Shown piece after piece: positions 20,331-33,926 of a DNA stretch of 64,000 nucleotides; the first letter of the stretch is position 1; every line of letters starts with the position of its first letter. The notes beneath the pieces were generated by a model. The model saw nothing but the letters and a program-made list of their open reading frames with translations. It did no database searches and was not told the DNA's origin. The position numbers and the translations under genes are program-made. Where the stretch lies: NCBI RefSeq assembly GCF_009908265.2, contig NZ_JAAATX020000005.1, forward strand, positions 1-64,000, in the 5' to 3' direction. This stretch comes from Paragemmobacter amnigenus (GTDB lineage Bacteria > Pseudomonadota > Alphaproteobacteria > Rhodobacterales > Rhodobacteraceae).

Positions 20331-21446
20331 TCAGAACGTGAAGGTCACGCCGAGGTCCATCGAGGTGGAGTCGGGGCCACTGACCTTGGTCTTGGCAACG
20401 CCGCCGACGATCGAAGCGCCACCGCCCAGATCGTAGGAAGCGCCGAGGCCATAGGCTGCGATTCCACCAACGCCCGAATCGTCAGTATAGAACGCGGTGC
20501 CGGTGATGCCGTTGGTCGAGTACGAGACCGAAGCCGCGTACTGCTTCCCGCTCAGACCGAGGTCAGCAAGCGTATCTCCGGCGACCGTGCCAGAAGCCTT
20601 CCCGTAAAGGCCCTTGAAAGACAGACCCGCTACAGTGCCTTCAACCGTCGCAACAATGTGCTTCAGGCTGGTGTTGTCGGGCGTAGCGACGTCCAGCGTG
20701 TCCATCGCACCCGGGTCAAGGGTGTCCGAAACATAGCCTGACAGCTTTTCGTAACCCAGACCAACGGCATAGTCACCGAACGTGTACTTACCGCCAACTG
20801 CCCACGCTTCAGCGTTGGACAGAAGTGCACTACGTTCCGCCGGAGTAGCGGCAGTAGGATCCACCAGCCAAATCGTATCGCGGGGGTTGGTGAACGACAC
20901 ATAGCCAGTGAACGCGCCAGCGGCGTACTCGTACAGCAGCGTCGGGTCATTCGTAATGTTCGTCGAAACGCCAAGGACACGCAGGGTTTCTTTGTCCTCG
21001 GCGGAAAGACCAGCTGCATCGGGATGCGTCATCCCGCCTGCGCCCAGGAAAGTCGACTCGCTCAGATCACCCAGACCCGTCAGGCTCTTCTGCGCGACGT
21101 TGCCGGTTGCTGTTTGAGCAGCGCCGTCGACGTCGCCCATGGACAGCTTGCCGAACGCGCCGGAGATGAACACCGAACCGGCGAGGCCGCTGGCAGCGTT
21201 TGCCGCATTGTCCGCACGGAACGAAGCGCCATAGGACAGACCCGAATCCGACTCAGCCGACATGGTGAAGGTGACGCGGGCACGCGAGGTGAAGGTAGCA
21301 GCGCCTTCGTCGGTCGACAGGGTCAGCGCATTGTCCTTGCCCGACTTCACGATCCCCATCCGCGCGTCACCCGACAGGGTCACTTCAGCGGCGGCGATCG
21401 ACGCGCCGGCGACGAGCATGGTCGTCGCGAGCAGTACTTTTTTCAT
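20331..21446 (-). CDS. Outer-membrane porin 1
   Basis: A 371-residue alphaproteobacterial porin. It has the signal peptide MKKVLLATTMLVAGASIAAA, then VTLSGDARMGI at the mature start, the segment GSVFISGAFGKLSMGDVDGA, and a C-terminus ending in aromatic Phe as needed for barrel insertion. It forms an outer-membrane diffusion channel. Its signal-peptide DNA differs at many bases from those of porins 2 and 3, so it does not share their 46-base repeat. The ATG at 21446 is preceded by AAGGAG. It is the longest of the three porins here. Confidence 0.9.
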   Translation of the reverse strand: MKKVLLATTMLVAGASIAAAEVTLSGDARMGIVKSGKDNALTLSTDEGAATFTSRARVTFTMSAESDSGLSYGASFRADNAANAASGLAGSVFISGAFGKLSMGDVDGAAQTATGNVAQKSLTGLGDLSESTFLGAGGMTHPDAAGLSAEDKETLRVLGVSTNITNDPTLLYEYAAGAFTGYVSFTNPRDTIWLVDPTAATPAERSALLSNAEAWAVGGKYTFGDYAVGLGYEKLSGYVSDTLDPGAMDTLDVATPDNTSLKHIVATVEGTVAGLSFKGLYGKASGTVAGDTLADLGLSGKQYAASVSYSTNGITGTAFYTDDSGVGGIAAYGLGASYDLGGGASIVGGVAKTKVSGPDSTSMDLGVTFTF

Positions 21447-21654: not shown

Positions 21655-23823
21655 TCACTCCGGCAAGAGCCCCCGCTCGGCCAGCACCTCGATCATCGGG
21701 GCCAGCTCTGCCTCGTACCGCTGCCACGCCTTGACCGACCCCCCGCTGATCGGTTGCCGCACCTGATACACGCTCAACGTGTCAACCCTGCGCTTGTTCT
21801 CATGGAAGTTCAGGCAGGCATCTTCCCAGTCCAGCCCGCAGGCCGCGACCAGCCTGCGCGACTCGGCCTCGGGGTTGGCGACCAGCGTCTCGTACTGCAC
21901 CTCGGTGAACCAGTCCGGCGTCTCGGCCCGCCAGAACTCCACCATCTCGACGAAGGTGGCGTAATAGTTGGCAAGATCGCGCAGGTCATAGGCATAGGGA
22001 TGCGTGCCCTCGGGAAAGCGGTTCTTGTAGATCGACAGCAGCGTGTCGCGCGGATCGCGCCGCACGACGACGATGCGCGCCTGCGGCAGGGCAAGCCGGA
22101 CAAGGCCGATATAGTTGTAGGTCGTGATCGACTTGTCGGTGATCCGCGCCGCATCGGGGAACCGCTCTGCTAGCTGCCGCGCGAAGTCATGGCCGATGCG
22201 GGCGATCGCCTCGGGCGGCATGTCGGCCAGCCGCTGGTCGCGTGCGGCAAAACCCGCATCGCGTGCGCTTTTCAGAAACAGACCCAGCTCTCCCGCCCCC
22301 GTCACCGACGAATGGCTGGAAATGATCTGCTCGACCAGCGTTGTCCCCGACCGCGGCATCCCGGTGACGAAGATGGGGGCTGCCGCGCTCGGCTCCGGCA
22401 CCTGCGTGCCCGCCCAGTCGAACCCCGCCATCACCCGTTTCAGCAAGGCAACCTCGGCCCGCCGCTCCTCGATGTCATAGGGGTAGAGCTTCCGCATCAG
22501 ATCATTGCCCTGCCGGATATAGGCAAAGGCGGCATCGTGGCGCTTCTGGTCCTCGAGCCCCTTGGCAATGGCAAAGGCAAAGCCCATCCGCGCGCGGTCG
22601 TCCAGAGCGGGCTCCTCGATCCGCGCCATCATCTGGTCGACCAGCGGATCGTCCGGACCGGCCTTGTGGCTGGCCATGTAGTTGCGGAACAGCTCGCCAT
22701 CCTGCGGCGCCCGCTCCATCGCGGTGCGGAAATACCCCTCGGCCTCGTCGAACCGCCCCAGAAGCTGCAACAGCGTCGCCTTGCGGACGATCGCCAGCAG
22801 GAAATCGGGCCGCAGCGCCAGCGCCTCGTCCACCAAGGCCAGCGCCTCGTCATCCCGACCCAGATGGGACAGCGATTGCGACAGCAGGCACAGCGCCTCG
22901 GGCGATTTGCGCGCGGACAGGTCGACCGCCCGCCGCAGGTGATCCGCCGCCTCCTCGTGCTCGCGCAGCTGGGTGCAGCAATTGCCCATGGCGATCAGCC
23001 CCGCCACGGATTTCGGCTGCAGACGCAGCGCCCGCTCCAGCCACGGCTTCGCCCGCTGGGCCTTCATCTGCTGGTTCAGAATCGTCCCGTATTCCAGCAG
23101 CGCCGCCTCCAGATCGGGCGCGCGGGCAATGGCCGACCGCAGGGCGCGCGCGGCCTCGTCCGGCTTGCCGGTGGCGACCAGCACCCGCGCGGCGTTCAGA
23201 TGCGGCTCGGGGTAAAAGGGGTCCAGCTTCGCCGCCGCCTGCAACTGCGCCATCGCGGCGGCGGTCTTGCCCTGCCCGGCCAGCGCGCTGCCCAGAAGGT
23301 TGGCCGCCAGCGCCGATTTCGGCTGCGCCCGCACAAGCGCCGCCGCCTGCGCCTCGGCCTTGGCGAAGTCGCGCGCCGCCATCAGCCGCATCGCGCCCTG
23401 CACCTGCGCCGCGGGCACCCCCGGCACATCCAGCCGCGCCGCCGCCCGCTGCGACCCGAACCGGTCCTGCAGCCGCAGTTTCACGGGCATCGGCAAACCC
23501 GCCTCGCGCAGGGCCGCCAGAAAGGCCCGCTCGGCCTCTTTCACACCGGACAGCGCGACTGTATCCGCCCAGGTGATCCAGACCGCAGGCTCGGCAGGCC
23601 GCAACCGCACCGCCGCCTCGGCATGTCCCAGCGCGCGGGGGAAATTGTCCGCATCGCAAAAGATCTGCGCCGCCATCCAATGCGCCTCGGCCACGCGCGG
23701 GTTGGCCTCGATGATCCGGCCAAGGACGGGCAAGGCCGCCTCGCCCCGCCCCTCGCGCACCAGTGCCAAAGCTTGCGAATACAGCGCCTTCACATCCACG
23801 GCGCTCGCGGCACTGGCGGTCAT
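21655..23823 (-). CDS. TPR-repeat sulfotransferase
   Basis: A 722-residue fusion of tetratricopeptide repeats (about residues 10-440) and a C-terminal sulfotransferase domain (from about 482). The PAPS 5'-phosphate loop is GMPRSGTTLVEQI, and a later VVRRDPRDTLLSIY gives the 3'-phosphate site. It would transfer sulfate from PAPS to an unknown acceptor, possibly a surface glycan or peptide held by the TPR part. It lies between two porin genes on the same strand. The ATG at 23823 was preferred over one seven codons upstream. Confidence 0.87.
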   Translation of the reverse strand: MTASAASAVDVKALYSQALALVREGRGEAALPVLGRIIEANPRVAEAHWMAAQIFCDADNFPRALGHAEAAVRLRPAEPAVWITWADTVALSGVKEAERAFLAALREAGLPMPVKLRLQDRFGSQRAAARLDVPGVPAAQVQGAMRLMAARDFAKAEAQAAALVRAQPKSALAANLLGSALAGQGKTAAAMAQLQAAAKLDPFYPEPHLNAARVLVATGKPDEAARALRSAIARAPDLEAALLEYGTILNQQMKAQRAKPWLERALRLQPKSVAGLIAMGNCCTQLREHEEAADHLRRAVDLSARKSPEALCLLSQSLSHLGRDDEALALVDEALALRPDFLLAIVRKATLLQLLGRFDEAEGYFRTAMERAPQDGELFRNYMASHKAGPDDPLVDQMMARIEEPALDDRARMGFAFAIAKGLEDQKRHDAAFAYIRQGNDLMRKLYPYDIEERRAEVALLKRVMAGFDWAGTQVPEPSAAAPIFVTGMPRSGTTLVEQIISSHSSVTGAGELGLFLKSARDAGFAARDQRLADMPPEAIARIGHDFARQLAERFPDAARITDKSITTYNYIGLVRLALPQARIVVVRRDPRDTLLSIYKNRFPEGTHPYAYDLRDLANYYATFVEMVEFWRAETPDWFTEVQYETLVANPEAESRRLVAACGLDWEDACLNFHENKRRVDTLSVYQVRQPISGGSVKAWQRYEAELAPMIEVLAERGLLPE

Positions 23824-23897
23824 GACGGTCCCCCTTGGTAACATTCCTTGACGGACTTACGGCAAGCCCCGCGCAAAGTCGACCGCCCCGCCCGCGC

Positions 23898-23954: not shown

Positions 23955-24961
23955 TCAGAACGACAGGCCGAGGCCGATCGAGTACTGAGCCTGGTTGCCA
24001 GCAGCAGCAGCGACGTCCGAACCGTAGCCGGCCATCACGACAGCGCCACCGCCCAGATCGTAGTTCACAGCCAGACCGTAGGAGTCAAACGACGTCGCAG
24101 CAACGCCGGTGTCCACGTCGCCGTAGTTGACGTGCATCGACAGGGCGCCGGTGGTGTAGGTCAGACCCAGACCGGTGCGGTCGGTGCTCAGAGCACCAGC
24201 CGTGTCGGGCTGCGTGCTGGTGTAGCCGAGCTTCGCAGCGAAGCCATTGGCCATCTCGGCCGAGACCGAAGCACCCCACACGTCGCCGTTCAGGACGACA
24301 GCCGCAACGTCATCCGGGGTACCGGCGAGACCGTCCGGACCATTGTTTGCCGGGGAGTTGGTGATCGCGCCAGCCTGATAGCCGAGGCCGAACTTCAGAG
24401 CGGTACCCGACATGTCCATCGAGTAGGTCGCACCGATGCCGACGTTGTCATCGGCGGTCACGCCGGCGACAACCGCAGCGTTGCCATTGTTCGCCTGCTC
24501 GTACGACACAGCGACGCCAAAGTCGCCCATGGCGTATTCGTAGCGGACGACTTGGCCGTCATGCGAACCGTCAAGCCCATTGGCCGAGAAGTAGGCGACG
24601 TGCGTGGTGTGGTCGTCGCCCATCGAGGTCAGCGAACCAGCGTCGGCAACCGCCCAGTCCAGAGCGCCATCGGTGTCGCCCATCGTCACTTTGCCGAACG
24701 AACCCGACACGAACACGGTGGTGCCCGAGTCATCGCCAGCTGCAACGTTGGTTTCGTCCAGATCGATAGCAGCGCCGAACGACAGGCCGCCGTCGGTTTC
24801 GCCGGACATCGTGAACGTCACTTCAACGTCCTGATGGAACTGGGTGATCGTACCAGCAGCGCCGCCGTCGGTGGCGAGGATACCGATTTCCGCGTAGCCC
24901 GACAGGGCCACTTCGGCAGCAGCGAAACCAGCGGTGCCAGCCAGCATCGTGGTCGCGAGAA
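23955..24961 (-). pseudogene. Porin 2 body without start codon or promoter (silent)
   Basis: The coding part of a second porin: the mature protein of about 319 residues starts EVALSGYAEIG, contains TTVFVSGSFGKVTMGDTDGA, has no internal stop and ends in Phe. The signal peptide is intact only from ILATTMLAGTAGFAAA. Upstream of that the frame reads foreign residues (SNVWLHSRR) with no normal start; only a TTG at 25016 is available. Identity with porin 3 breaks at 24961. The body is undamaged, so it looks recently disconnected rather than decayed. It could be re-expressed if joined to 30076. Confidence 0.8.
24916..24961. repeat. Left 46-base repeat (candidate attL) in porin 2 signal sequence
   Basis: It matches 30030-30075 at 44 of 46 bases, and its last 19 bases (AGCATCGTGGTCGCGAGAA on the plus strand) are identical in both. 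Porin homology stops exactly at its right edge. It encodes the second half of the signal peptide. Confidence 0.7.
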
Positions 24962-25029
24962 TACGCCTGCTATGTAGCCAGACGTTACTTGCCACTATCA
25001 ACCAAAACACACCCAAATCATGGGGTCTC

Positions 25030-25043
25030 TTCGGTCGCTGACC
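25030..25043 (+). repeat. 14-base direct repeat, copy upstream of recombinase 1
   Basis: TTCGGTCGCTGACC, containing the dyad GGTC-GCT-GACC, 62 bases upstream of the recombinase 1 ATG. An identical copy lies 65 bases upstream of recombinase 2, while the surrounding sequences do not match. It may be an operator or a recombinase or accessory-factor binding site. Confidence 0.65.
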
Positions 25044-25091
25044 TGCTCAAAAGGGCATAAAATTCAGGTATCTAGACCGAGGTAAGAGCGT

Positions 25092-26045
25092 ATGGGACTG
25101 CTATCTAAGCTGCTCAGGCAGACCGCAACTGAACCACAGCCGCCAAACAGCAGTAGACGCAGCGACCTGCTGCTCAACGAGTTCTTCGACTGCCACTTCT
25201 ATCCATACGCAGAAGCGACCCGTCGTCGTCCAGCCATCGTCAAATACATCTACGACAAGCACCTGCGACCAAACCTTGGACAGAAGCGGCTGTGTGACCT
25301 CGACAGTAAGATGCTGGATGAATGGGTCAGGACGCACATCAGAAAGCGTTACAAGCCAGGAACCATCAACAAGCACATCTTCCTTGTGAACCGCATCCTG
25401 AACGTGGCTCAGAACTGGGGGATGATAGAACACAACGCCTACAAGAACTGTGTCATCAAGCGTCTGCCGCTTGGTGATTATCGTCAGCGGTTCCTGAGCG
25501 AAGGCGAACTGCGAACGCTGCTCGACGCCTGCTACAGGGACCAGCACCCGTTCCTCTATCTGTTCGCCAAGCTGCTCATACTGACAGGGGCAAGAAGCAG
25601 CGAAGCACGACTTGCTCGTTGGCGAGACTTCGACTTCCAGTCGTGCATATGGACCGTGCCGCTGAGCAAGAGCGGACGCAGCAGACGCATCGTGCTGAGT
25701 AGTGCCGCTATCGCCGTGCTAGATGATATCAAAGCTCAAGCTGAACGGCTGTATCTGCCGCACACGGTCAACGATTACATCTTCATCAACCCCAAATTCA
25801 AAAAGCCCTACGATAGCTTTCACTTGGCATGGGACAGAGCGAGACAGCGAGTTGGGCTGCGTGATGTGCGTATACACGACCTGCGGCACACCTATGCCAG
25901 TCTACTCATCAACAAGGGTGCCAGCATCTACGAGGTGCAACGACTGCTTGGCCATCATCATGTGTCTATGACCGAACGCTATGCACACCTGATGCCCAAC
26001 ACGCTTGCAGAGCGTGTTGAGATAGTTGCCGACATACTGGGCTGA
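25092..26045 (+). CDS. Tyrosine recombinase/integrase 1 (full-length)
   Basis: A 317-residue phage-type integrase. An N-terminal SAM-like core-binding domain covers about residues 25-125 (YIYDKHLRPNLGQKRL), followed by the catalytic domain. Catalytic residues are R168 (LTGARSSEA), K193, H262 and R265 (HDLRH), H288 and the nucleophile Y297 (MTERYAH). Nothing essential is missing. A GAGGTAA ribosome binding site precedes the ATG. It is the first gene inside the left end of the element and reads inward, the usual place for an integrase next to its attachment site. Codon use is unlike that of its neighbours outside the element. Confidence 0.93.
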   Translation: MGLLSKLLRQTATEPQPPNSSRRSDLLLNEFFDCHFYPYAEATRRRPAIVKYIYDKHLRPNLGQKRLCDLDSKMLDEWVRTHIRKRYKPGTINKHIFLVNRILNVAQNWGMIEHNAYKNCVIKRLPLGDYRQRFLSEGELRTLLDACYRDQHPFLYLFAKLLILTGARSSEARLARWRDFDFQSCIWTVPLSKSGRSRRIVLSSAAIAVLDDIKAQAERLYLPHTVNDYIFINPKFKKPYDSFHLAWDRARQRVGLRDVRIHDLRHTYASLLINKGASIYEVQRLLGHHHVSMTERYAHLMPNTLAERVEIVADILG

Positions 26046-26143
26046 GTATTTTTTCGCAGCCTCACTATGCCTGTCTGTCGTTCAGTCAAAACTCGACGCT
26101 GACCGCAACAGACCGCGTAGATTTCGCCCAAAAGGCGGTGGTA

Positions 26144-26180
26144 GTCTTGCCCGCGCTGTTGAGTGCTGCACGGGCAAGAC
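26144..26180. repeat. 10-bp inverted repeat after recombinase 1
   Basis: Arms GTCTTGCCCG and CGGGCAAGAC are separated by 17 bases, between recombinase 1 and the convergent operon. Perhaps a weak terminator for either side; only short T stretches follow. Confidence 0.6.
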
Positions 26181-26205
26181 CTTTGCTGTAGGCGCTGCTT
26201 AGGCG

Positions 26206-26652
26206 CTAATAGCGGTCCCTGTCCAAGTCATACAGGAACCTACGAAGTTTCTCCGCCGTTTCTGGGTTGGATTGCGCTGCGGACAGCTTTGCCTCGCGTT
26301 CCAAGCGCCGCATATCGTCGATGTCATACTCGTACTCGCGCTTATCAATGCGACGGATACTGCGATATGGACGCTCCATCAGTGCTTCGACGTCGACCTC
26401 ATAGGCGTCACGCAGCACACCATCTTTCCAGCAATCTAATGCTTCCCGCTCATCAGCTGACAGTTCGCTGAGCTTTTCCGCAATCTGTTCGCCAAGTTGC
26501 TCAAGCTGACGGTCAATCTGAGCTTGTCGCTTACGGTGTGCTCTGGTCATTTCAGACATTAGACGGCGATATCGCTGCAGCAGTTTGACAGTACGCTCAT
26601 ACAACGGTCCAACACGTACCTCTTGGTATACACGCCGGACCGTGCGTATTAC
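26206..26652 (-). CDS. Unknown coiled-coil protein, probably expressed by -1 frameshift
   Basis: An open frame of 148 codons with no good start: the only candidate before an internal Met is a TTG at 26604. The frame is open right up to the A8 run at the end of the upstream gene, so a -1 shift there would give a 269-residue fusion. The sequence is highly charged and helical (QIDRQLEQLGEQIAEKLSEL), then SIRRIDKREYEYDIDDM and a Tyr-terminated end. I do not recognise the family. A stand-alone short protein from TTG 26604 is the alternative. Confidence 0.65.
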   Translation of the reverse strand, partial: VIRTVRRVYQEVRVGPLYERTVKLLQRYRRLMSEMTRAHRKRQAQIDRQLEQLGEQIAEKLSELSADEREALDCWKDGVLRDAYEVDVEALMERPYRSIRRIDKREYEYDIDDMRRLEREAKLSAAQSNPETAEKLRRFLYDLDRDRY

Positions 26653-26660
26653 TTTTTTTT
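26604..26660 (-). promoter_or_regulatory. Candidate -1 ribosomal frameshift signal
   Basis: On the minus strand a run of eight As (26660-26653) followed by G gives the slippery A-AAA-AAG heptamer, one codon before the TAA stop of the upstream gene. After an 8-base spacer comes a 40-base hairpin (26643-26604): outer arms ACGGTCC/GGACCGT, then ten further pairs (four of them G-T) with a 2-base bulge, and an AAGA loop. Slippery site, spacing and structure all fit known -1 programmed frameshift sites. Confidence 0.65.
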
Positions 26661-27014
26661 GCGGCGAGCCTCTTCGTCAGCCCAATCCGTGTCCTTGCTG
26701 CGTTCGATAGCACGACGCATCTTTTCAATAGTACCACGAACGTCAGCGAGAGTATTATTTGTGTACACAGCAGAGCCCTCAACAGCTTTGCCCGCATACC
26801 GCATAACAACTCGCCGCTGTCCATCGACGCTCTGTGGGGACCACCAGTACTTGGATGCTTCACCGTCGAGTTCGTCTTCTGCTTTATATCCATCCAGTAT
26901 CTGCAGCATTCTATCTGCCTGCCCAATGAGCTTGGAACGCAGTCCAGCATTCGGGCTATCACTCGGAACCAAGCCCTCTTCACGCATCAAATCTTGCAGC
27001 CACTGCATTGGCAA
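26649..27014 (-). CDS. Unknown protein, upstream partner of the frameshift pair
   Basis: A 121-residue protein starting MPMQWLQDLMREEG. It has a Trp-rich centre (SKYWWSPQSVDGQRRVV) and a helical, basic end EEARRKKK that is encoded by the A8 run. A strong ribosome binding site, AAGGAGG, lies about six bases before the ATG at 27014, so this is the real entry point of the pair. I do not recognise the family. If the shift occurs, the ribosome continues into the downstream frame; otherwise it stops at TAA 26649. Confidence 0.8.
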   Translation of the reverse strand: MPMQWLQDLMREEGLVPSDSPNAGLRSKLIGQADRMLQILDGYKAEDELDGEASKYWWSPQSVDGQRRVVMRYAGKAVEGSAVYTNNTLADVRGTIEKMRRAIERSKDTDWADEEARRKKK

Positions 27015-27074
27015 TCCTCCTTCTTGGCTTCAATGTCAGAGAGATTGTTTCACATATTCAAACCGTCAATGCCG

Positions 27075-27218
27075 TCACGACAAATTTCTCGGCTTGGATT
27101 TGTTGAACGGCTGCGCCTTGCTTGGTGGCGTATGGGATGTGTCGATACGTTTGTTTGGGTTGGGTGAACACTTTGGCTTAGCTGGAACTTTTATTGGCTT
27201 CACTATCACTTCACACAC
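27075..27218 (-). CDS. Small Lys/Pro-rich protein, hypothetical
   Basis: A 47-codon frame from GTG at 27218, overlapping the stop of the preceding short gene by eight bases. The product is basic and proline-rich (VKPIKVPAKPKCSPNPNKR). A longer version from ATG 27275 would overlap the preceding gene more extensively. Support is limited to the coupling and the non-random composition. Confidence 0.4.
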   Translation of the reverse strand: MCEVIVKPIKVPAKPKCSPNPNKRIDTSHTPPSKAQPFNKSKPRNLS

Positions 27219-27318
27219 TCGCACCGTAATAGCCTCCCTCTGCCCGCATCGGTATATACCAATGGCCACCATCAAAGCGTAAGTACTTCATTGCCAGATT
27301 TCGTACTGCAGCATTCAT
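27211..27318 (-). CDS. 35-residue hypothetical protein
   Basis: A short frame whose ATG (27318-27316) overlaps the TGA of the upstream gene as ATGA, a strong sign of translational coupling. The product is MNAAVRNLAMKYLRFDGG followed by a Trp/Tyr-rich end (HWYIPMRAEGGYYGAS), which looks like real protein. No family recognised. Confidence 0.5.
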   Translation of the reverse strand: MNAAVRNLAMKYLRFDGGHWYIPMRAEGGYYGASV

Positions 27319-27635
27319 CGAACACAGACCCTCTGCCAGCGTTCCCGTACCTTCAGCTCTAATGCCGACTGCGTTCCTCGACGCAGCTCGGTTAGCACGC
27401 CAGCCCAATGCCTGCTTGTTGCGTCACTGCGCTTGCCCAGCTCGTTCGCATAGTATCCAAGTCTGCTCCCCAGCGTCGCCAATGCTTCTGCACTGGGTTC
27501 TAGCCCGTTGAATTTAAGTGTACGCAGATAGCATTCGCTCTTGCCCAGCCATTGTTCGCAGAACTCCGCTTGAGTTCGTACAATGCCCGCAGCCATCAGC
27601 GTGTCTCGCACCTGTTCCAGTATCAAATCTGACAT
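27315..27635 (-). CDS. DUF6626-like small protein
   Basis: A 106-residue protein resembling the small alphaproteobacterial family I know as DUF6626: an early GIVRTQAEFCEQWLGKSECYL and a central PSAEALATLGSRLGYY. The early helices resemble a DNA-binding fold (the F-x-x-x-W-L-G-K-S turn), so a regulatory role is possible but not shown. An AAGGAA site stands seven bases before the ATG at 27635, and a nested inverted repeat lies just upstream. It heads the minus-strand operon of the element. Confidence 0.65.
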   Translation of the reverse strand: MSDLILEQVRDTLMAAGIVRTQAEFCEQWLGKSECYLRTLKFNGLEPSAEALATLGSRLGYYANELGKRSDATSRHWAGVLTELRRGTQSALELKVRERWQRVCVR

Positions 27636-27652
27636 TCAATCGTTCCTTCGTT

Positions 27653-27701
27653 GATAAATAACTTCGTAGGCAAGCTGTGTGGTGACGCTTGCTTATTTAT
27701 C
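27653..27701. promoter_or_regulatory. Nested inverted repeat at the head of the element operon
   Basis: Outer arms GATAAATAA and TTATTTATC enclose inner arms GCAAGC and GCTTGC; the left side carries an extra CTTCGTAG between them, so the whole is a 15-bp stem with an 8-base bulge and an 11-base loop. It starts 17 bases upstream of the DUF6626-like start codon. It may be an operator, or a structured site used by one of the recombinases. Confidence 0.6.
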
Positions 27702-28081
27702 GGCTACAGGCCCAGTTGCGTCACAAGACGCCCCGCAGATACGAGCACAGGTAACGCTGTAGACGTTGGGTGGCGGGTGCCAAGCAGTGTAATGCCGAGC
27801 TGCTCAACAACCGACGCAGCGTTGTTCTGCGTCTAACAAATCAAATGACAGGATTGGGATAGAGGCTTGGACATCAAGTACCCCATATGCTGCACGGACG
27901 TCGTGTCCATAGCGCCGTGCAGCTGCGTTGTGACGCTCCTCGTCGGCAAGCACAGAACGTACAGCATAACCCGCGTTCGCTGCGTGAGCAGAAGGCTTGC
28001 TTATGGACTGGTGAAGCAACTCGAATGAGACTGCTGCGCTGTGATGAGGCTGCGTAAGCCTCATTATGGCTAACAATCTGA
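27702..28081. other. Low-G+C stretch without a convincing gene
   Basis: About 380 bases inside the element. Short frames on both strands overlap each other and none has a good start or protein-like composition. The only clear structure is a hairpin ATGAGGCT/AGCCTCAT with a 5-base loop at 28044-28064. It may be regulatory DNA or the remains of a gene. Confidence 0.5.
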
Positions 28082-28282
28082 ATGAGCCCATCAATCATTG
28101 AAGAAGAATACTGCTCAAGCCAGCTGCAGAAGAGCGACAGCGATACTGCAGAAGGCGATGAGCAGCTGAGCAAGGCTCAGCTCGAACAAGATCCAAAGAG
28201 TGAACAATGTGGGTTTGGCCGAGTTCTGACCGCAGCACAGGGATATGTCATAGAATACACAGTCTATGAGATAACGGGATAA
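28082..28282 (+). CDS. Small acidic hypothetical protein
   Basis: A 66-residue frame, acidic and Gln/Ser-rich in its first half (EEEYCSSQLQKSDSD) with a hydrophobic end (GYVIEYTVYEITG). No clear ribosome binding site is seen and no family is recognised. It lies upstream of recombinase 2 on the same strand. Confidence 0.35.
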   Translation: MSPSIIEEEYCSSQLQKSDSDTAEGDEQLSKAQLEQDPKSEQCGFGRVLTAAQGYVIEYTVYEITG

Positions 28283-28318
28283 GTCCTTGTTCTCATTGAG
28301 AGCTGCATCATGTGTGTT

Positions 28319-28332
28319 TTCGGTCGCTGACC
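28319..28332 (+). repeat. 14-base direct repeat, copy upstream of recombinase 2
   Basis: TTCGGTCGCTGACC, identical to 25030-25043, 65 bases before the recombinase 2 ATG. The shared position relative to both start codons suggests common control of the two recombinases. Confidence 0.65.
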
Positions 28333-28383
28333 AAATACCTCAGACTGTACAGTTGCTGCACGACCTCTATGAGAGATTGAGCC

Positions 28384-28950
28384 ATGCCAGCAGCTAAATT
28401 GATTACCGAACGAGACCTCAAGCGAGCCCTTGGTCATTGCAGCACACGTCGTCACTGCTTGCGTGACCAAACTATCATCCAGCTCAGCTACTACGCAGGA
28501 CTGCGTGCCTGCGAGATTGCCACCCTGACTGTGGGCGACGTCTATGACGTGGGAGGCACGGTGCGTAGCACTGTAACGCTCAGCGCACAGCAGACAAAGG
28601 GTCATCGTGCGCGGGTCTTTTATCTCAACCAGCGTCTTGCTCGTGTCTTTGCCAACTATTGGCCTGTGGTCAACGGCCGTGACAGTGCTGCTCCTCTGTT
28701 CGTCACTCAGCAGCAGACTGCGTTCAGCGCCAACACCATAAGCCAGCTGTTTCTCAGCATCTATCACAGTGCTGGATTGATTGGCTGTTCAAGTCATTCG
28801 GGCAGGCGCAGCTTCATCACACGCTTAGCAGAGCAGGGCGTTGCAGTTCATCTGCTTGCTGCTCTCGCGGGGCATCGCAGCATCCAAACCACGCAACGCT
28901 ACATCACCGTCAACGAAGCCTTGCTGGCTCGTGCAGTGGAGCTGGCGTGA
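28384..28950 (+). CDS. Minimal tyrosine recombinase 2 (FimB/FimE size)
   Basis: A 188-residue tyrosine recombinase consisting of little more than the catalytic domain. Catalytic residues are R41 (GLRACEIATL), K72 (TKGHRAR), H138 and R141 (HSGRR), H164 (LAGHRS) and nucleophile Y173 (TQRYITV). It lacks the N-terminal core-binding domain. In size and layout it resembles the FimB/FimE invertases that flip promoters of surface structures. It may act in excision, inversion or as a helper of recombinase 1. The next short gene overlaps its stop codon. Confidence 0.9.
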   Translation: MPAAKLITERDLKRALGHCSTRRHCLRDQTIIQLSYYAGLRACEIATLTVGDVYDVGGTVRSTVTLSAQQTKGHRARVFYLNQRLARVFANYWPVVNGRDSAAPLFVTQQQTAFSANTISQLFLSIYHSAGLIGCSSHSGRRSFITRLAEQGVAVHLLAALAGHRSIQTTQRYITVNEALLARAVELA

Positions 28951-29165
28951 TGAAGAACAGGTCGATACTAGCGGACGTGAAGCAGCTGCAACGTGCTCAG
29001 CGTCACGTTCTGTGGCTGAGAGCAAATTTGCCCAAACACAGCATCACCCGTCGAGTTGAGCGTGAGTTGCTTGTGCGTCGAACCGCTCTGGCACTTGCGG
29101 CTGGGCTTACAGCTGAACGGGCGGTGCGACGTGTGTGCCAGCGTGGGTCTGAGCCTGAACGCTAA
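28950..29165 (+). CDS. 71-residue basic protein coupled to recombinase 2
   Basis: The ATG at 28950 uses the last base of the recombinase 2 stop (TGATG), which points to translational coupling. The product is basic and helical, MKNRSILADVKQLQRAQR followed by several Arg-rich helices. Size, charge and position would suit an excisionase-like or DNA-bending helper, but no motif proves this. It ends just before the porin 3 terminator, which reads in the opposite direction. Confidence 0.6.
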   Translation: MKNRSILADVKQLQRAQRHVLWLRANLPKHSITRRVERELLVRRTALALAAGLTAERAVRRVCQRGSEPER

Positions 29166-29170
29166 CGCAT

Positions 29171-29202
29171 AAAAGAAAAGAGCGAGGCGAAGCCCGCTCT
29201 TT
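29171..29202 (-). terminator. Terminator of porin 3
   Basis: On the minus strand an 8-bp stem AAAGAGCG/CGCTCTTT extended by GGC/CCT-like pairs around TTCG is followed by TTCTTTT. Similar in sequence to the porin 2 terminator. Confidence 0.8.
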
Positions 29203-29224
29203 CCTTTAACCTGACTGGGTCAGA

Positions 29225-30088
29225 TTAGAACGAGAGAGAAACGCCAGCTTCCCAAACGGTGTCAACGCCGAGGTCAGCAACGCCACCGACGACGGAGGCA
29301 CCGCCACCGAGGTCGTACGCTGCACCAACGCCGAACGCGGCGTCAGCAACGTTGTCGTTGTCCGAGTAGGCCGCCGACAGCGTCAGAGCGCCGGCGGTGT
29401 ACGAGGTGGTCACGCCCCAAGCGTCAGCTTCGGCGCCCGAATCCGCGTCCCAGGACGAGTACATCGCAGCTACGCTGACCGCGCCAGCGGTGCCACCAGC
29501 GTACAGCGAGGTCACAGTGCCAGCAACAACCGGCGTTGCGTTGTCGTCGTTGTAGCCGAGGCCGACATACATTTCGCCGAAGGTGTACTTCGCACCAACA
29601 GCGTAGGAGTCGCCATCGCCAGTCGCGCCGATCCGCGTCGACGCCGCGATCGAGAAGTCGCCGGCCGAGTAGCTGTAGTTCACGTCATGCGTCTGACGGC
29701 CAGCCGAGTCGCCCGAGAAGGCTTCAGCAACGTTGTCGACGCCAAGGCCACCGATACCACCGATGTCAGACAGGGTCGCGACTTCGTCAGCTTCGGCGAC
29801 GGAGCCCATCGACAGCTTGCCGAACGCACCCGAGATGTACACGGAGGTGCCGTCATCGTTCAGGCCACCATCGGTGTCGTAGGTAGCGATCGTCTGGTCG
29901 AAACCGAAAGAGATACCCGAGTCCGACTCGCCCGAAGCCGAGAAGGTCAGATAGGTCTCCATCTTGGAGACGGTGTCGGTGCCGTTGTCGCCAACGCCCA
30001 TCACAGCCGAACCCGACATGGTGATTTCAGCAGCAGCGAAGCCAGCGGTGCCAGCGAGCATCGTGGTCGCGAGAAGAATCTTTTTCAT
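29225..30088 (-). CDS. Outer-membrane porin 3 (expressed composite porin)
   Basis: A 287-residue porin with signal peptide MKKILLATTMLAGTAGFAAA, mature start EITMSGSAVMGV, the conserved TSVYISGAFGKLSMGSV, and a C-terminal Phe. The mature part is clearly divergent from porin 2, while the second half of the signal-peptide DNA is almost identical to it. If the element model is right, the first five codons and the promoter belong to the old porin 2 gene and the rest came with the element. The ATG at 30088 follows GAGGGAAAACG. Confidence 0.9.
   Translation of the reverse strand: MKKILLATTMLAGTAGFAAAEITMSGSAVMGVGDNGTDTVSKMETYLTFSASGESDSGISFGFDQTIATYDTDGGLNDDGTSVYISGAFGKLSMGSVAEADEVATLSDIGGIGGLGVDNVAEAFSGDSAGRQTHDVNYSYSAGDFSIAASTRIGATGDGDSYAVGAKYTFGEMYVGLGYNDDNATPVVAGTVTSLYAGGTAGAVSVAAMYSSWDADSGAEADAWGVTTSYTAGALTLSAAYSDNDNVADAAFGVGAAYDLGGGASVVGGVADLGVDTVWEAGVSLSF
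30030..30075. repeat. Right 46-base repeat (candidate attR) in porin 3 signal sequence
   Basis: The partner of 24916-24961 (44 of 46 bases identical, with 19 identical at the right edge). To its right the sequence continues with the normal first codons of a porin gene. Confidence 0.7.
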
Positions 30089-30149
30089 CGTTTTCCCTCG
30101 TTGTCTTAGGAACGCCCAACCCAGGGGAATCCGGGAAGGGGATGTGTCG

Positions 30150-30178
30150 TTAATCATTCTTACCGCCCCGGATTGCAA
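30150..30178 (-). promoter_or_regulatory. Candidate porin 3 promoter
   Basis: On the minus strand TTGCAA (30173-30178) and GATTAA (30150-30155) are 17 bases apart, about 60 bases upstream of the porin 3 start. The spacing fits a sigma-70-type promoter, although the -10 match is modest. The rest of 30089-30441 shows no gene; part is a GC-rich stretch without recognisable signals. Confidence 0.35.
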
Positions 30179-30441
30179 CGACGGACCGTTAGCAAAAGTT
30201 AATGCCCTTGGCCGTGGTGCAGCTTTGCCACAGTCGGTTCCGCCCCCCAGCCCGCACCCGCCCAGCACTGGCCCCGCACTGGCCCCGCGCCCCGTCCCGC
30301 ACGTCCGCAGAGAGAGGCAGGCACCCCCGTCGGCTTCGCAGGCGTCTGCGCGCACACGGCACGGGGAAACAGGGGGAAAAGCCTTGGCACGCCTGAAACG
30401 GTGGGCTAGACAACACCCCTAGTAGGCTTACGGGGGACTGG

Positions 30442-31002
30442 ATGAACCTGCATCGCTTGGCACATGTCGCGCTGATCGGCGGCGTCCTTATCTCGCTCTC
30501 GGCCTGCGGTTCGGGCATCGCCAGCGGCGACAGCGGCCTCTTCCGCCGCAGCGCCAGCCCGTCGATCCCCGCAGAAGCCACGCTCGAACGCCGCCAGCGG
30601 GCCGAGGCGCAGCGTGCCGCCCTCGAACGCGCCTCGGGCGGGCCGGAAACGAACCGGTCCTCCTTCTTCGACCTGTTCAAGAATTCCGACGACCCGAACA
30701 CCACGGTCGAGGTGAACAAGTACCTCTGGCAGGCCTCGCTCGACGTGCTGAACTTCCTGCCCATCGAATCGGTCGACCCCTTCACCGGCGTCATCGTCAC
30801 CGGCGTGGGCACCCCGCCCGGCGGCGGGCGCGCCTACAAGGCGACGATCTACGTGCAGGACCCCGCGCTGGACGCGCGCAGCCTGAAGGTCGCGCTGATG
30901 ACCTCGGGCGGCGGCGCGGTCGATCCGGGCACCGTCCGCGCGGTCGAGGATGCGATCCTCACCCGCGCGCGCCAGCTCCGCATCCAGGACAGCAAGCTCT
31001 GA
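30442..31002 (+). CDS. DUF3576 lipoprotein
   Basis: A 186-residue lipoprotein with lipobox LSAC (Cys at residue 22), then a linker and a DUF3576 domain (VNKYLWQASLDVLNFLPIES, DPFTGVIVTGVGTPPGG). I recall the family upstream of leuS and lptE in Rhodobacterales; its role is unknown. The neighbouring lptE suggests an envelope function. The ATG at 30442 places the lipobox correctly. Confidence 0.87.
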   Translation: MNLHRLAHVALIGGVLISLSACGSGIASGDSGLFRRSASPSIPAEATLERRQRAEAQRAALERASGGPETNRSSFFDLFKNSDDPNTTVEVNKYLWQASLDVLNFLPIESVDPFTGVIVTGVGTPPGGGRAYKATIYVQDPALDARSLKVALMTSGGGAVDPGTVRAVEDAILTRARQLRIQDSKL

Positions 31003-31370: not shown

Positions 31371-33926
31371 ATGTCGCGCTACGAACCGTCCCAGACCGAA
31401 CCGAAATGGCAGGATGCCTGGGACAAGGCCGGGGCCTTCACGGCGAAACGCGATCCGGCCAAGCCGAAATACTACGTGCTGGAAATGTTCCCCTATCCGT
31501 CGGGGCGCATCCACATGGGACATGTGCGCAACTACACCATGGGCGACGTCGTGGCGCGGCAGAAGGCGGCGGCGGGGTATAGCGTGCTGCACCCGATGGG
31601 CTGGGACGCCTTCGGGATGCCCGCCGAGAACGCCGCGATGGAACGCGGTGGCCACCCCAAGGACTGGACCTACGGCAACATCGCCGACATGCGCGCCCAG
31701 ATGAAACCGCTGGGCCTGTCCATCGACTGGTCGCGCGAATTCGCCACCTGCGACCCCGAATATTACGGCCAGCAGCAGGCGATGTTCATCGACATGCTGG
31801 AAGCGGGCCTCGTCTACCGCAAGAACGCGGTGGTGAACTGGGATCCGGTCGACATGACCGTGCTTGCCAACGAACAGGTGATCGACGGCAAGGGCTGGCG
31901 CTCTGGCGCTGCCGTGGAACGGCGCGAGTTGACGCAGTGGTTCTTCAAGATCTCGGACTATTCCGAAGACCTGCTGAACGCGCTGGATACCCTCACCGAC
32001 TGGCCCGAAAAGGTGCGCCTGATGCAGGCCAACTGGATCGGCAAGTCGCGCGGCCTGCAATTCGCCTTCGAAACCGTCGGCGCCCCCGCAGGCTTTGACC
32101 GGCTGGAGGTCTACACCACCCGCCCCGACACCCTGATGGGCGCCTCCTTCGCCGCCATCTCGGCCGACCACCCGCTCGCCAAGGCGCTGGAACACGACCC
32201 GAAGGTTGCGGCCTTCACCGCCGAATGCCGCAAGGGCGGCACCTCGGCCGAAGAGATCGAGACGGCGGAAAAGATCGGCCTCGACACTGGCATCCGCGTG
32301 AAACACCCGCTCGACCCCTCGTGGGAACTGCCCGTCTGGATCGCCAACTTCATCCTGATGGACTACGGCACCGGCGCCATCTTCGGCTGCCCCGCCCATG
32401 ACCAGCGCGACTTCGACTTCGCCACCAAATACGGCCTGCCGATCAAGGCCGTGTTCGTGGCCGAAGGCGAACAGGACGCCCCCCTGACCGAAGCTTTCGT
32501 TCCCATGAAATCCGAACGCGTGACCTACGTGCGCGGCTTTGCGGGCAAGGACACCCAGACCGGCGAAGACGCCATCGCCGCCGCAATTTCCCACGCCGAA
32601 ACAAACGGTTACGGAAAAGGAGTGACGAAATTCCGCCTGCGCGACTGGGGCATCTCGCGCCAGCGCTACTGGGGCTGCCCGATCCCGGTCGTCCATTGCG
32701 CCACCTGCGGCGTCGTGCCGGAATCGAAGGCGAACCTGCCCATCAAGCTGCCCGATGACGTGACCTTCGACGTGCCGGGCAACCCGCTCGACCGCCACCC
32801 GACATGGCGCGACTGCACCTGCCCGAAATGCGGTGCAAAGGCCCGGCGCGAGACGGATACGATGGACACCTTCGTGGACAGCTCGTGGTATTACGCCCGC
32901 TTCACCGCGCCCCGCGCCACCACGCCCACCATCGCGGAAGATGCCGACTACTGGATGAACGTCGACCAGTATATCGGCGGCATCGAACACGCGATCCTGC
33001 ACCTCCTTTATTCCCGCTTCTTCGCCCGCGCGATGGCCAGGACAGGCCACCTGCCGCAGAAGGCCACCGAACCCTTCAACGCCCTCTTCACCCAAGGGAT
33101 GGTGACCCACGAAATCTACCTGACGCGCGACGCCAACGGCCGCCCCGTCTATCACCTGCCCGAAGACATCCTTCGCACCGACACCGGCGCCACGCTGAAG
33201 GACGGCACGGCGGTGGAGATTATCCCGTCCGCCAAGATGTCGAAGTCGAAGAAGAACGTCGTCGACCCGATGAACATCATCGCCCAGTTCGGTGCCGACA
33301 CCGCGCGCTGGTTCGTCATGTCCGACAGCCCCCCCGAACGCGACGTGGAATGGACCGCATCGGGGGCCGAGGCCGCCTACAAGCACCTCTCCCGCGTCTG
33401 GCGCATCGCGGATGAAATCGCCCGCTCCGACACCCCCGCAAACGGGGCCGAGGATACGGCGCTGGCCCGCGCCACGGCCAAGGCGGTGGACGAGGTGACG
33501 AAGGGCATCGAAGGCTTCGCCTTCAACAAGGCCATCGCGAAACTCTACGAATTCACCAACACCCTCCAGCGCTCGCAGGCGGGCACGGCTGCCAAACGCG
33601 ACGCCATGCGCGTCATGGCCCAGCTCATGCAGCCCATGACCCCGCATCTGGCCGAAGAGGTCTGGTCCATGCTCGGCGGTGCTGGTCTGGTGACGCAGGC
33701 CCCCTGGCCCAAGGCCGACCCCGCCCTGCTGGTCGAGGATTCCGTGACCCTGCCCATCCAGATCAACGGCAAACGGCGGGCGGAAATCACCGTTCCCAAG
33801 GATATGCCAGCGACCGAGGTTGAAAAGATCGCCCTCGCAGACGAAGCTGTGGTCAAATTCCTCGCCGGTCAGCCGGTGAAGAAGATCATCGTCGTCCCGG
33901 GGCGCATCATCAATGTCGTCGTCTGA
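31371..33926 (+). CDS. leuS: Leucyl-tRNA synthetase
   Basis: An 851-residue class I synthetase that charges tRNA-Leu. The HIGH motif appears as HMGH in [11 protein letters not shown], the KMSKS motif as AKMSKSKKN, and the CP1 editing domain with [12 protein letters not shown] lies between them. A Cys-rich segment (CATCGVV and CPKCGAK) marks the zinc-binding insert. The length is typical. The stop overlaps the lptE start by 14 bases. Confidence 0.97.

Follow-up and report, generated by a model that had tools for sequence, protein, structure and literature searches.

A probable porin switch tied to one clade of tyrosine recombinases in Paragemmobacter amnigenus and other Rhodobacteraceae

Two porin bodies, one start and the DNA between them

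The window analysed here is a 64,000-nucleotide stretch of contig NZ_JAAATX020000005.1 from Paragemmobacter amnigenus (G000; G, L and C numbers denote genomes, loci and contigs in our comparisons). It holds two genes, porin 2 and porin 3, which share a stretch of signal sequence (the core) and lie on either side of a tyrosine recombinase gene, the porin-site integrase (Table 1). Porin 3, on the minus strand, reads ATGAAAAAGATTC, its first codons, and then TTCTCGCGACCACG. Porin 2 begins at the identical TTCTCGCGACCACG, with unrelated DNA in front of it from position 24962, and has no ATG, ribosome binding site or leader; its frame is open from the core onward (...ILATTMLAGTAGFAAAE). It is headless, as the original prediction had claimed from the letters of the window, and the 5' end that it lacks does stand in front of another porin body, with ATGAAAAAGATTC preceding the shared core at porin 3. 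The predicted 46-base repeat also holds: the two cores are identical at 44 of 46 positions, with mismatches at bases 20 and 35 and the first 19 bases identical in the reading direction. Since the runner-up ungapped match of the core 46-mer in the window, in the signal sequence of porin 1, reaches only 31/46, this match is not due to chance. The leader aacgagggaaaacgATG and about 100 bases upstream of it are common to the window and its genus relatives, and a promoter is placed there putatively. The porins match the solved structures 2POR (1.6e-51) and 1PRN (4e-16), which we take to be the porins of Rhodobacter capsulatus and Rhodopseudomonas blastica; these belong to the same family and are silent on switching.

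Seventeen sites in the genus were compared to decide which body is the resident. An intact porin stands behind the same or a similar leader at 16 of them, and the contig of G008 ends at the leader. The site porins of G002, G006 and G018 resemble porin 2 (71.6, 69.5 and 60.2% identity, respectively) and are intact behind the same promoter, as the original prediction had anticipated for relatives. The closest match of porin 2 (74.4%) is the second porin of G002, and identity to the site porins of other species is lower. For porin 3, the best of 38 porins taken from 18 of the 19 genomes in the genus gives 41.3% identity. We therefore regard porin 2 as the resident that was displaced; porin 3 most likely has an outside origin. 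The arrangements that had been named as signs of a simple insertion with deletion, such as porin 3 intact beside a headless porin 2 without the recombinases, were found at none of the 17 sites.

The 4.2 kb from 24962 to 29165 has a G+C content of 0.534, compared with 0.668 for the window, and Phage_integrase is found in it twice, so the predicted pair of recombinases in low-G+C DNA is present. The porin-site integrase combines this domain with the conserved R, K, HxxR, H/W and Y of tyrosine recombinases; R168, K193, H262, R265, H288 and Y297, presumably the catalytic residues, are invariant in 16 of 16 aligned sequences, and its profile matches include the HP1 integrase, XerA and XerD (E 6e-23 to 8e-18). 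The order of the integrase, open reading frames (ORFs) o7 and o8, the DUF6626 gene and the second recombinase recurs in two other genera (G134, G569), again with an intact and a headless porin flanking it in direct orientation and with a G+C content below that of the surroundings. The second recombinase also has homologues in the elements of G134, G569 and G306 (52-57% identity). At the three direct loci of the window, G134 and G569 the cores lie in a coding gene at both ends and the integrase lies by one end, and the empty site with a whole resident gene is seen in G002, G006 and G018, as in gene-restoring integration. The first headless locus of G306 (L052) keeps the integrase, DUF6626 and second recombinase genes, while o7 and o8 were not found; it is possibly a decaying element, intermediate between a mobile form and a bare switch.

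Other identities for the element were considered and rejected. Its proteins match only PHROGs of integrase type or unknown function (three of the six match none), with no phage structural or replication gene, which argues against a prophage. Searches for carriers returned 32 plasmid records, all below 60% (15 listed at 32.8%), 17 phage records, the best among the ten listed at 32.6% identity, and at least 79 viral loci, with a best segment of 39% among the matches listed. A PADLOC search of the six element proteins gave no match.

Several names in Table 1 are our own reading of the proteins. We take the marker gene to be DUF3576, and this number, like the names leuS, alr, dapF, mtaB and HAD (the last four used below), was assigned by reading the protein, without a family search; the TPR/sulfotransferase-like gene was likewise named from its sequence. 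The latter gene holds an equivalent position in G002, G006, G011 and G018, and also in G008. The marker gene was detected in 18 of the 19 genus genomes and adjoins the intact porin in many integrase-bearing genomes.

Table 1. Features of the porin exchange region in the window
Feature	Position	Strand	Remarks
Porin 1, intact	20331-21446	-	Porin_4; own leader; outside the exchange as far as seen
TPR/sulfotransferase-like gene	21655-23844	-	3' of resident porin; flank marking the resident body
Porin 2, headless OFF body	23955-24961	-	Porin_4 1.2e-43; displaced resident
Recombination core 2 (putative)	24916-24961	-	Start of headless porin 2; used in core comparison
Porin-site integrase, tyrosine recombinase	25092-26045	+	317 amino acids; Phage_integrase 3.9e-30
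ORF o7, conserved element protein	26206-26604	-	Homologues 46% (G134), 42% (G569); order kept
ORF o8, conserved element protein	26649-27014	-	Homologues 47% (G134), 70% (G569); order kept
DUF6626 protein	27315-27635	-	PF20331 3.5e-29; homologues in G134, G569, G306
Second tyrosine recombinase	28384-28950	+	188 amino acids; catalytic domain only; Phage_integrase 3.1e-24
Small ORF o6	28947-29165	+	72 amino acids; matches no family
Porin 3, intact ON body	29225-30088	-	Porin_4 5.1e-29; unlike other genus porins
Recombination core 1 (putative)	30030-30075	-	In signal sequence of porin 3; 44/46 identical to core 2
Fixed promoter (putative) and leader, ribosome site and first codons (30088-30076), ON position	30076-30250	-	Leader shared with genus relatives
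Marker gene, lipoprotein-like	30442-31002	+	Adjoins promoter; marks fixed side
leuS	31371-33926	+	Marks fixed side together with marker gene

An integrase clade beside headless porins

The porin-site integrase was found in 4 of 19 genus genomes and 18 of 394 family genomes. At the level of the order it occurred in 13 of 390 genomes at E <1e-118, with two more matches that were much weaker; among 385 genomes of the class there was none of that strength besides the window's own, and three weaker ones. All strong matches in these searches lie within the Rhodobacteraceae, and the named carriers are Marivivens donghaensis KCTC 42776, Rhodobacteraceae bacterium XHP0102, Rhodobacterales bacterium LSUCC0031 and two Rhodobacteraceae metagenome-assembled genomes. 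A set of 29 integrases from 27 genomes (G018, which has an integrase fragment, was excluded) formed one clade with 100/100 support against nine controls. Every one of the 29 has a porin within 503 bases, the nearest being headless in 23 cases and intact in 6, so the search for the same recombinase beside signal-sequence repeats with other porin bodies, as proposed originally, was successful. No porin was found within 2 kb of 75 weaker relatives or 5 outgroup integrases, for some of which the available flanks were short. At most loci of the clade the integrase is present without the other element genes.

An intact porin and at least one headless body were found in 24 of the 26 integrase-bearing genomes inventoried (LSUCC0031 was left out). 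These genomes thus have one expression site and headless alternative bodies that share its 5' core, the arrangement of an Omp1-type switch. The headless bodies would be silent, because the start and leader are missing. The orientation of the bodies was compared where both lie on one contig. Fourteen pairs are inverted: one each in G008, G015, G017, G063, G165, G171, G191, G241, G386, G401 and G530, two in G306, and porin 3 with a further headless body, por4, in G000. Direct pairs, 5-6 kb apart, occur in the window, G134, G569 and G161, and the bodies of other genomes lie on separate contigs. Between the direct cores lies the five-gene element, except in G161, where the integrase is the only gene recognised in about 5 kb. 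All inverted pairs examined (G008, G015, G017, G063, G165, G191, G241 and G000) enclose chromosomal genes. The spacing of inverted pairs runs from about 6 kb (G241, G191) to 109 kb (G306), and to about 760 kb in the single-contig genome G386 if it is circular. This geometry fits the arithmetic of site-specific recombination, in which direct cores delete and inverted cores flip the DNA between them.

The two direct porins of G161 (L051) have the integrase between them, both carry a ribosome binding site and an ATG, and their shared string of 69 bases extends over the leader, which would fit a headless copy that acquired a start again through conversion. By eye, a GGTGCACCTT-like string lies shortly 5' of the ribosome binding site of intact porins in several genera outside that of the window (L228, L231, L232, L237, L239) and was not seen at the headless bodies inspected; it may be a promoter or operator element.

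We then located the breakpoints in 25 intact/headless pairs from 24 genomes. The longest shared string starts at a T/C-rich core in 19 of the 25, with matches at 2-9 of the preceding 20 bases. The shortest shared strings measure 8 bases (G063), TCTTCGCTAC (G306) and the 12 bases TCTTCTTGCGAC (G008), and the longest measures 89 (G191). Headless cores carry inverted-repeat arms around a 7-base spacer, with mean scores of 4.62 (16 sites) and 5.18 (11 sites) out of 10 that were equalled in 0 of 2000 shuffles. Such arms were not found at 39 intact cores (mean 2.38, with 448 of 2000 shuffles as high). The arms are near-perfect in G048 (9/10) and LSUCC0031 (8/10) and poor at the window's own core (3/10); the automatic anchor was off for L048, L225 and L227, and these rows were retained.

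Exchange of bodies between genomes

One inversion was caught by comparison, in G008. G015 and G017 share the order leuS, marker gene, promoter, intact porin, about 12 kb, porin 1, alr, four genes, integrase (reverse), headless porin (reverse) and next gene. The sulfotransferase-like gene replaces the 12 kb in G018, with the order after it unchanged, an integrase fragment and no headless body. A 12,998-base contig of G008 instead runs from the promoter through the intact porin, integrase, the four genes reversed, alr, porin 1 and the sulfotransferase-like gene to a headless porin-2-like body, and its last part is the beginning of that next gene (22 residues, 86%). It is the mirror image of G018 across 12.6 kb (the equivalent segment in G015 and G017 is about 22 kb), and both breakpoints, judged against G018, G015 and G017, lie inside the core, as in an Omp1-type inversion.

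The assembly of G008 also forks at this point. Contig C85, with leuS and the promoter, ends in ...CTTCTTGCGAC / ...AAGATTCTTCTTGCGAC, and C10 opens with the identical 55 bases. Directly after this overlap the two bodies differ for the first time, the expressed one having T and the headless one C, and the last 36 bases of the overlap occur at these two contig ends alone in the assembly (at up to two mismatches). With no more than 12 bases in common between the junctions, the assembly of a clonal genome would not be expected to split at this point, which suggests a mixture of reads from the two states; the assembler used and its word length were deduced from the overlap. This fork alone was used, because its 12-base shared string is far below the 55-base overlap. 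Contig breaks were rejected as a general proof of mixed populations, as genomes without a detected integrase also break near porin starts, and a 127-base contig overlap in G159 was left unused, as it does not start where a swap predicts. Three contigs of G429 (C11, C45 and C12), with the promoter side, the headless side and both bodies, end in one 92-base repeat, a four-way junction.

A second headless body was found in the host genome itself. A search of G000 returned a second integrase, 61% identical to that of the window, at C5:86355, directly behind por4 (C5 at about 84,952, plus strand), a headless porin 68% identical to porin 2. The core of por4 is inverted relative to that of porin 3, from which 55 kb of the same contig separate it. 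The HAD-type hydrolase and tRNA-Lys/dapF are adjacent in G003, G010, G011 and G016, with no porin between them, so the por4 site is empty there. The por4 module starts immediately behind GCGACGAC, which lies in the 3'-terminal part of the HAD-type gene (L010:4860-4960; G000 C5 at about 84,860-84,960); this core-like string, which relatives too carry ahead of the HAD-type stop codon, may be a secondary attachment site. The orientation of the HAD-type gene relative to the marker gene, 127-151 kb away, is opposite in G006, G008 and G018 to that in G000, G002, G003, G010, G011 and G016, which reflects other large inversions near the switch.

The ON or OFF state of the resident was then followed across the family. 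The promoter side consists of leuS and the marker gene in most integrase-bearing genomes where it is seen, and the resident body was recognised by a downstream alr or sulfotransferase-like gene. The resident is ON in G015, G017, G042, G165, G171, G241, G386, G401 and G581, and OFF in G000, G008, G029, G159, G191, G252, G276, G306, G530 and LSUCC0031; no label was given to G657, G161, G134, G569, G063 and G429. The leuS tree held 18 ON genomes, nine of which belong to the genus and lack a full integrase, together with 9 OFF genomes, LSUCC0031 not being included. G010 was counted as ON, but its contig stops within the porin and leaves the downstream flank unseen, and G015 and G017 were tied to alr across about 12 kb and porin 1. 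The state required 8 changes on this tree, at least 5 of them forced by strong branches. As few changes were needed in 351 of 500 shuffles, so the state does not follow descent. The body behind the promoter of G306, G530 and G657 has dapF-mtaB on its downstream side, genes that also neighbour headless por4 in G000. The arrangement differs in G134, G569, G063 and G146, where it is the promoter side of the intact porin that carries alr. G657 and G008 both differ in arrangement from their kin; G657 was discarded as a second clean swap, as no porin lies beside its alr gene.

The headless bodies also look selected. Eight of 33 rows labelled headless were set aside: two contig-edge pieces (L042, L224), a mislabelled intact porin of G569 (L225:13940), bodies of G429 and G159 whose beginning coincides with a contig end (L229, L230, L244), a G017 porin lacking this core (L246) and a 90-amino-acid fragment in G657 (L247). 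All 25 remaining full-length headless bodies are open to a stop after the final Phe. The ratio of nonsynonymous to synonymous substitution rates (dN/dS) between headless orthologues was 0.25, 0.18, 0.20 (saturated) and 0.58 (the state of one partner being unknown), compared with 0.31 and 0.42 between headless and resident intact bodies and 0.33-0.61 in six intact-intact pairs. Two bodies of one genome gave 0.08-0.34 (five genomes). Startless genes keep a low dN/dS only if their expression is frequent enough, or was until recently, which points to bodies that change places.

Mechanism, alternatives and meaning

We consider it very probable that a porin switch is run by one tyrosine recombinase clade, which swaps bodies behind one promoter by inversion and, in the window, by a mobile element. 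Comparison between species shows the anatomy, the breakpoints, the ON/OFF exchange of bodies and the selection on headless bodies; this integrase would be the catalyst, and the exchange would be reversible within a culture. The integrase would act on a short stretch of the porin signal sequence, a core of approximately TCTTCGC, and join DNA there; on the headless side an imperfect inverted repeat lies around this core. A single unit of promoter and start codon would serve exchangeable bodies, the remaining ones lying startless elsewhere, and recombination of the core behind the promoter with that of a headless body would exchange the two in frame. Where the cores are inverted, the chromosome between them would flip, as in the 12.6 kb of G008, and the swap would be reversible. 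Where they are direct, as in the window, a 5.1-kb element would have integrated with its own body and could in principle leave. ORFs o7 and o8, DUF6626 and the second recombinase may have roles in the switch.

A number of observations weigh against this switch. Genomes of one genus share one state (G386/G581, G252/G429, G306/G530 and G015/G017), and switching may therefore be slow. The promoter side of G657 (L234, L347) matches its sister species, yet it has an unexpected partner flank and an alr gene without an adjacent porin, a combination that one clean swap does not explain; this genome also has the 90-amino-acid fragment, which falls short of a whole body. Six of the 25 breakpoint pairs (G042, G241, G401, G530, G569, G657) had no sharp left edge in the automatic comparison; either 10-18 of their 20 preceding bases match or the longest string lies elsewhere. 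Two porins of G161 have an ATG, and G146 has no headless body, with one intact porin in one inventory and none found in another. The fork of G008 is on the promoter side only, C10 being unbroken through the headless junction, and the por4 module stands in place of about 258 bp of intergenic DNA, which is no clean insertion. A weak point in the window itself is an open frame with a TTG start (25016-23955) that enters porin 2 from the foreign side; no ribosome binding site was seen for it.

The elements could alternatively be gene-restoring and nothing else, in which case the porin is a target for insertion, the replacement body spares the host, the headless body is debris and no switching is programmed. 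The common five-gene element of lower G+C between the bodies at the direct loci (window, G134, G569) would be explained in this way, as would por4 with its integrase at a site that is empty in four relatives (G003, G010, G011, G016). We nevertheless regard this as unlikely: most loci have no other element genes, and inversion prevails among same-contig pairs, those examined having chromosomal genes between them. Debris would decay, yet all 25 full-length headless bodies are open and their dN/dS is low, and both the scattered ON/OFF states and the exact inversion in G008 speak for exchange. The element model of the original prediction stands for the window, given the relatives' sites and two genera with the same element, but not as the general form, since most same-contig pairs are inverted.

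RecA-type homologous recombination or gene conversion between porin paralogues, with the integrase as a bystander, seems to us quite improbable. Inverted paralogues can recombine, and some pairs do have 50-89 identical bases at the core, but the pairs of G008 and G306 share merely 10-16 bases there, the breakpoints cluster at one motif with dyad arms at headless cores, and the linkage of integrase and porin is 29/29 as against 0/80 in controls. We strongly doubt a simple insertion with a small deletion between tandem porins, in which porin 3 would be an original occupant of the site and porin 2 no more than a broken gene. In the genus this site often holds tandem porins, and the two terminators look alike; however, none of 38 genus porins is porin-3-like (best 41.3%), porin-2-like bodies stand intact behind the same promoter in three species, and the arrangement is repeated in two other genera. 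An assembly artefact caused by the repeated signal sequence is hardly credible: contigs do end near porin starts in several genomes, some without a detected integrase (G009, G010, G013), but headless bodies also lie inside the single-contig genomes G386, G530, G569 and G063 and inside long contigs such as that of the window.

The proposed porin switch has counterparts in known systems. Omp1 of Dichelobacter nodosus reportedly has several bodies for one expression site, with site-specific inversion near a conserved 5' end. Phase and antigenic variation of Omp1 by such inversion is the subject of Moses et al. (1995), a reference of PMC5903667. The likeness (several outer-membrane bodies, one expression site, exchange near the 5' end) is one of working; unlike Omp1, the switch proposed here involves Porin_4 porins, an integrase clade linked to the bodies, long segments with housekeeping genes and a mobile form. 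Prophages and islands also integrate in a gene-restoring manner, for example e14 in icd, where the core likewise lies within a coding sequence, the replacement is in frame and the displaced part is left promoterless at the other end; here, in contrast, a divergent sequence takes the place of almost the entire mature protein, and the product changes. Shufflon/Rci-type and hsdS invertible systems join alternative coding segments to a constant start, again by a tyrosine recombinase, whereas here the constant part is the 5' end of a signal sequence and the bodies are dispersed, without a compact multi-cassette array. The first view, that no surface-switching device of this kind had been seen described, does not hold for the principle, known from omp1 of D. 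nodosus. As far as the open-licence literature shows, what is new is the family of porins involved, an integrase clade dedicated to them, the length of the segments and a mobile form that brings a complete replacement body. No porin switch was found described for Rhodobacteraceae in that literature, an absence that carries little weight, as most subscription journals lie outside its scope.

Across the family, it is likely that one clade specialised for the signal sequence moves a single promoter-start unit among dispersed bodies, by inversions of kilobases to hundreds of kilobases, and that the same enzyme powers a small element that imports new bodies, so that the surface both switches and gains versions at one site. 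Porins belong to the major surface proteins, and phages of other bacteria often use them as receptors; the benefit would be an altered cell surface, against phages or for permeability. Headless porins are easily missed, since they resemble ordinary or broken genes, and one carrier, Marivivens donghaensis KCTC 42776, which has the direct form, bears a culture-collection number. If the switch operates as proposed, these bacteria would have a dedicated and heritable exchange of whole porins with the promoter kept, allowing fast variation of the surface. Some changes of gene order near leuS, alr and dapF would then be by-products of one enzyme, and the mobile and inverting forms together would suggest a route from mobile element to host switch.

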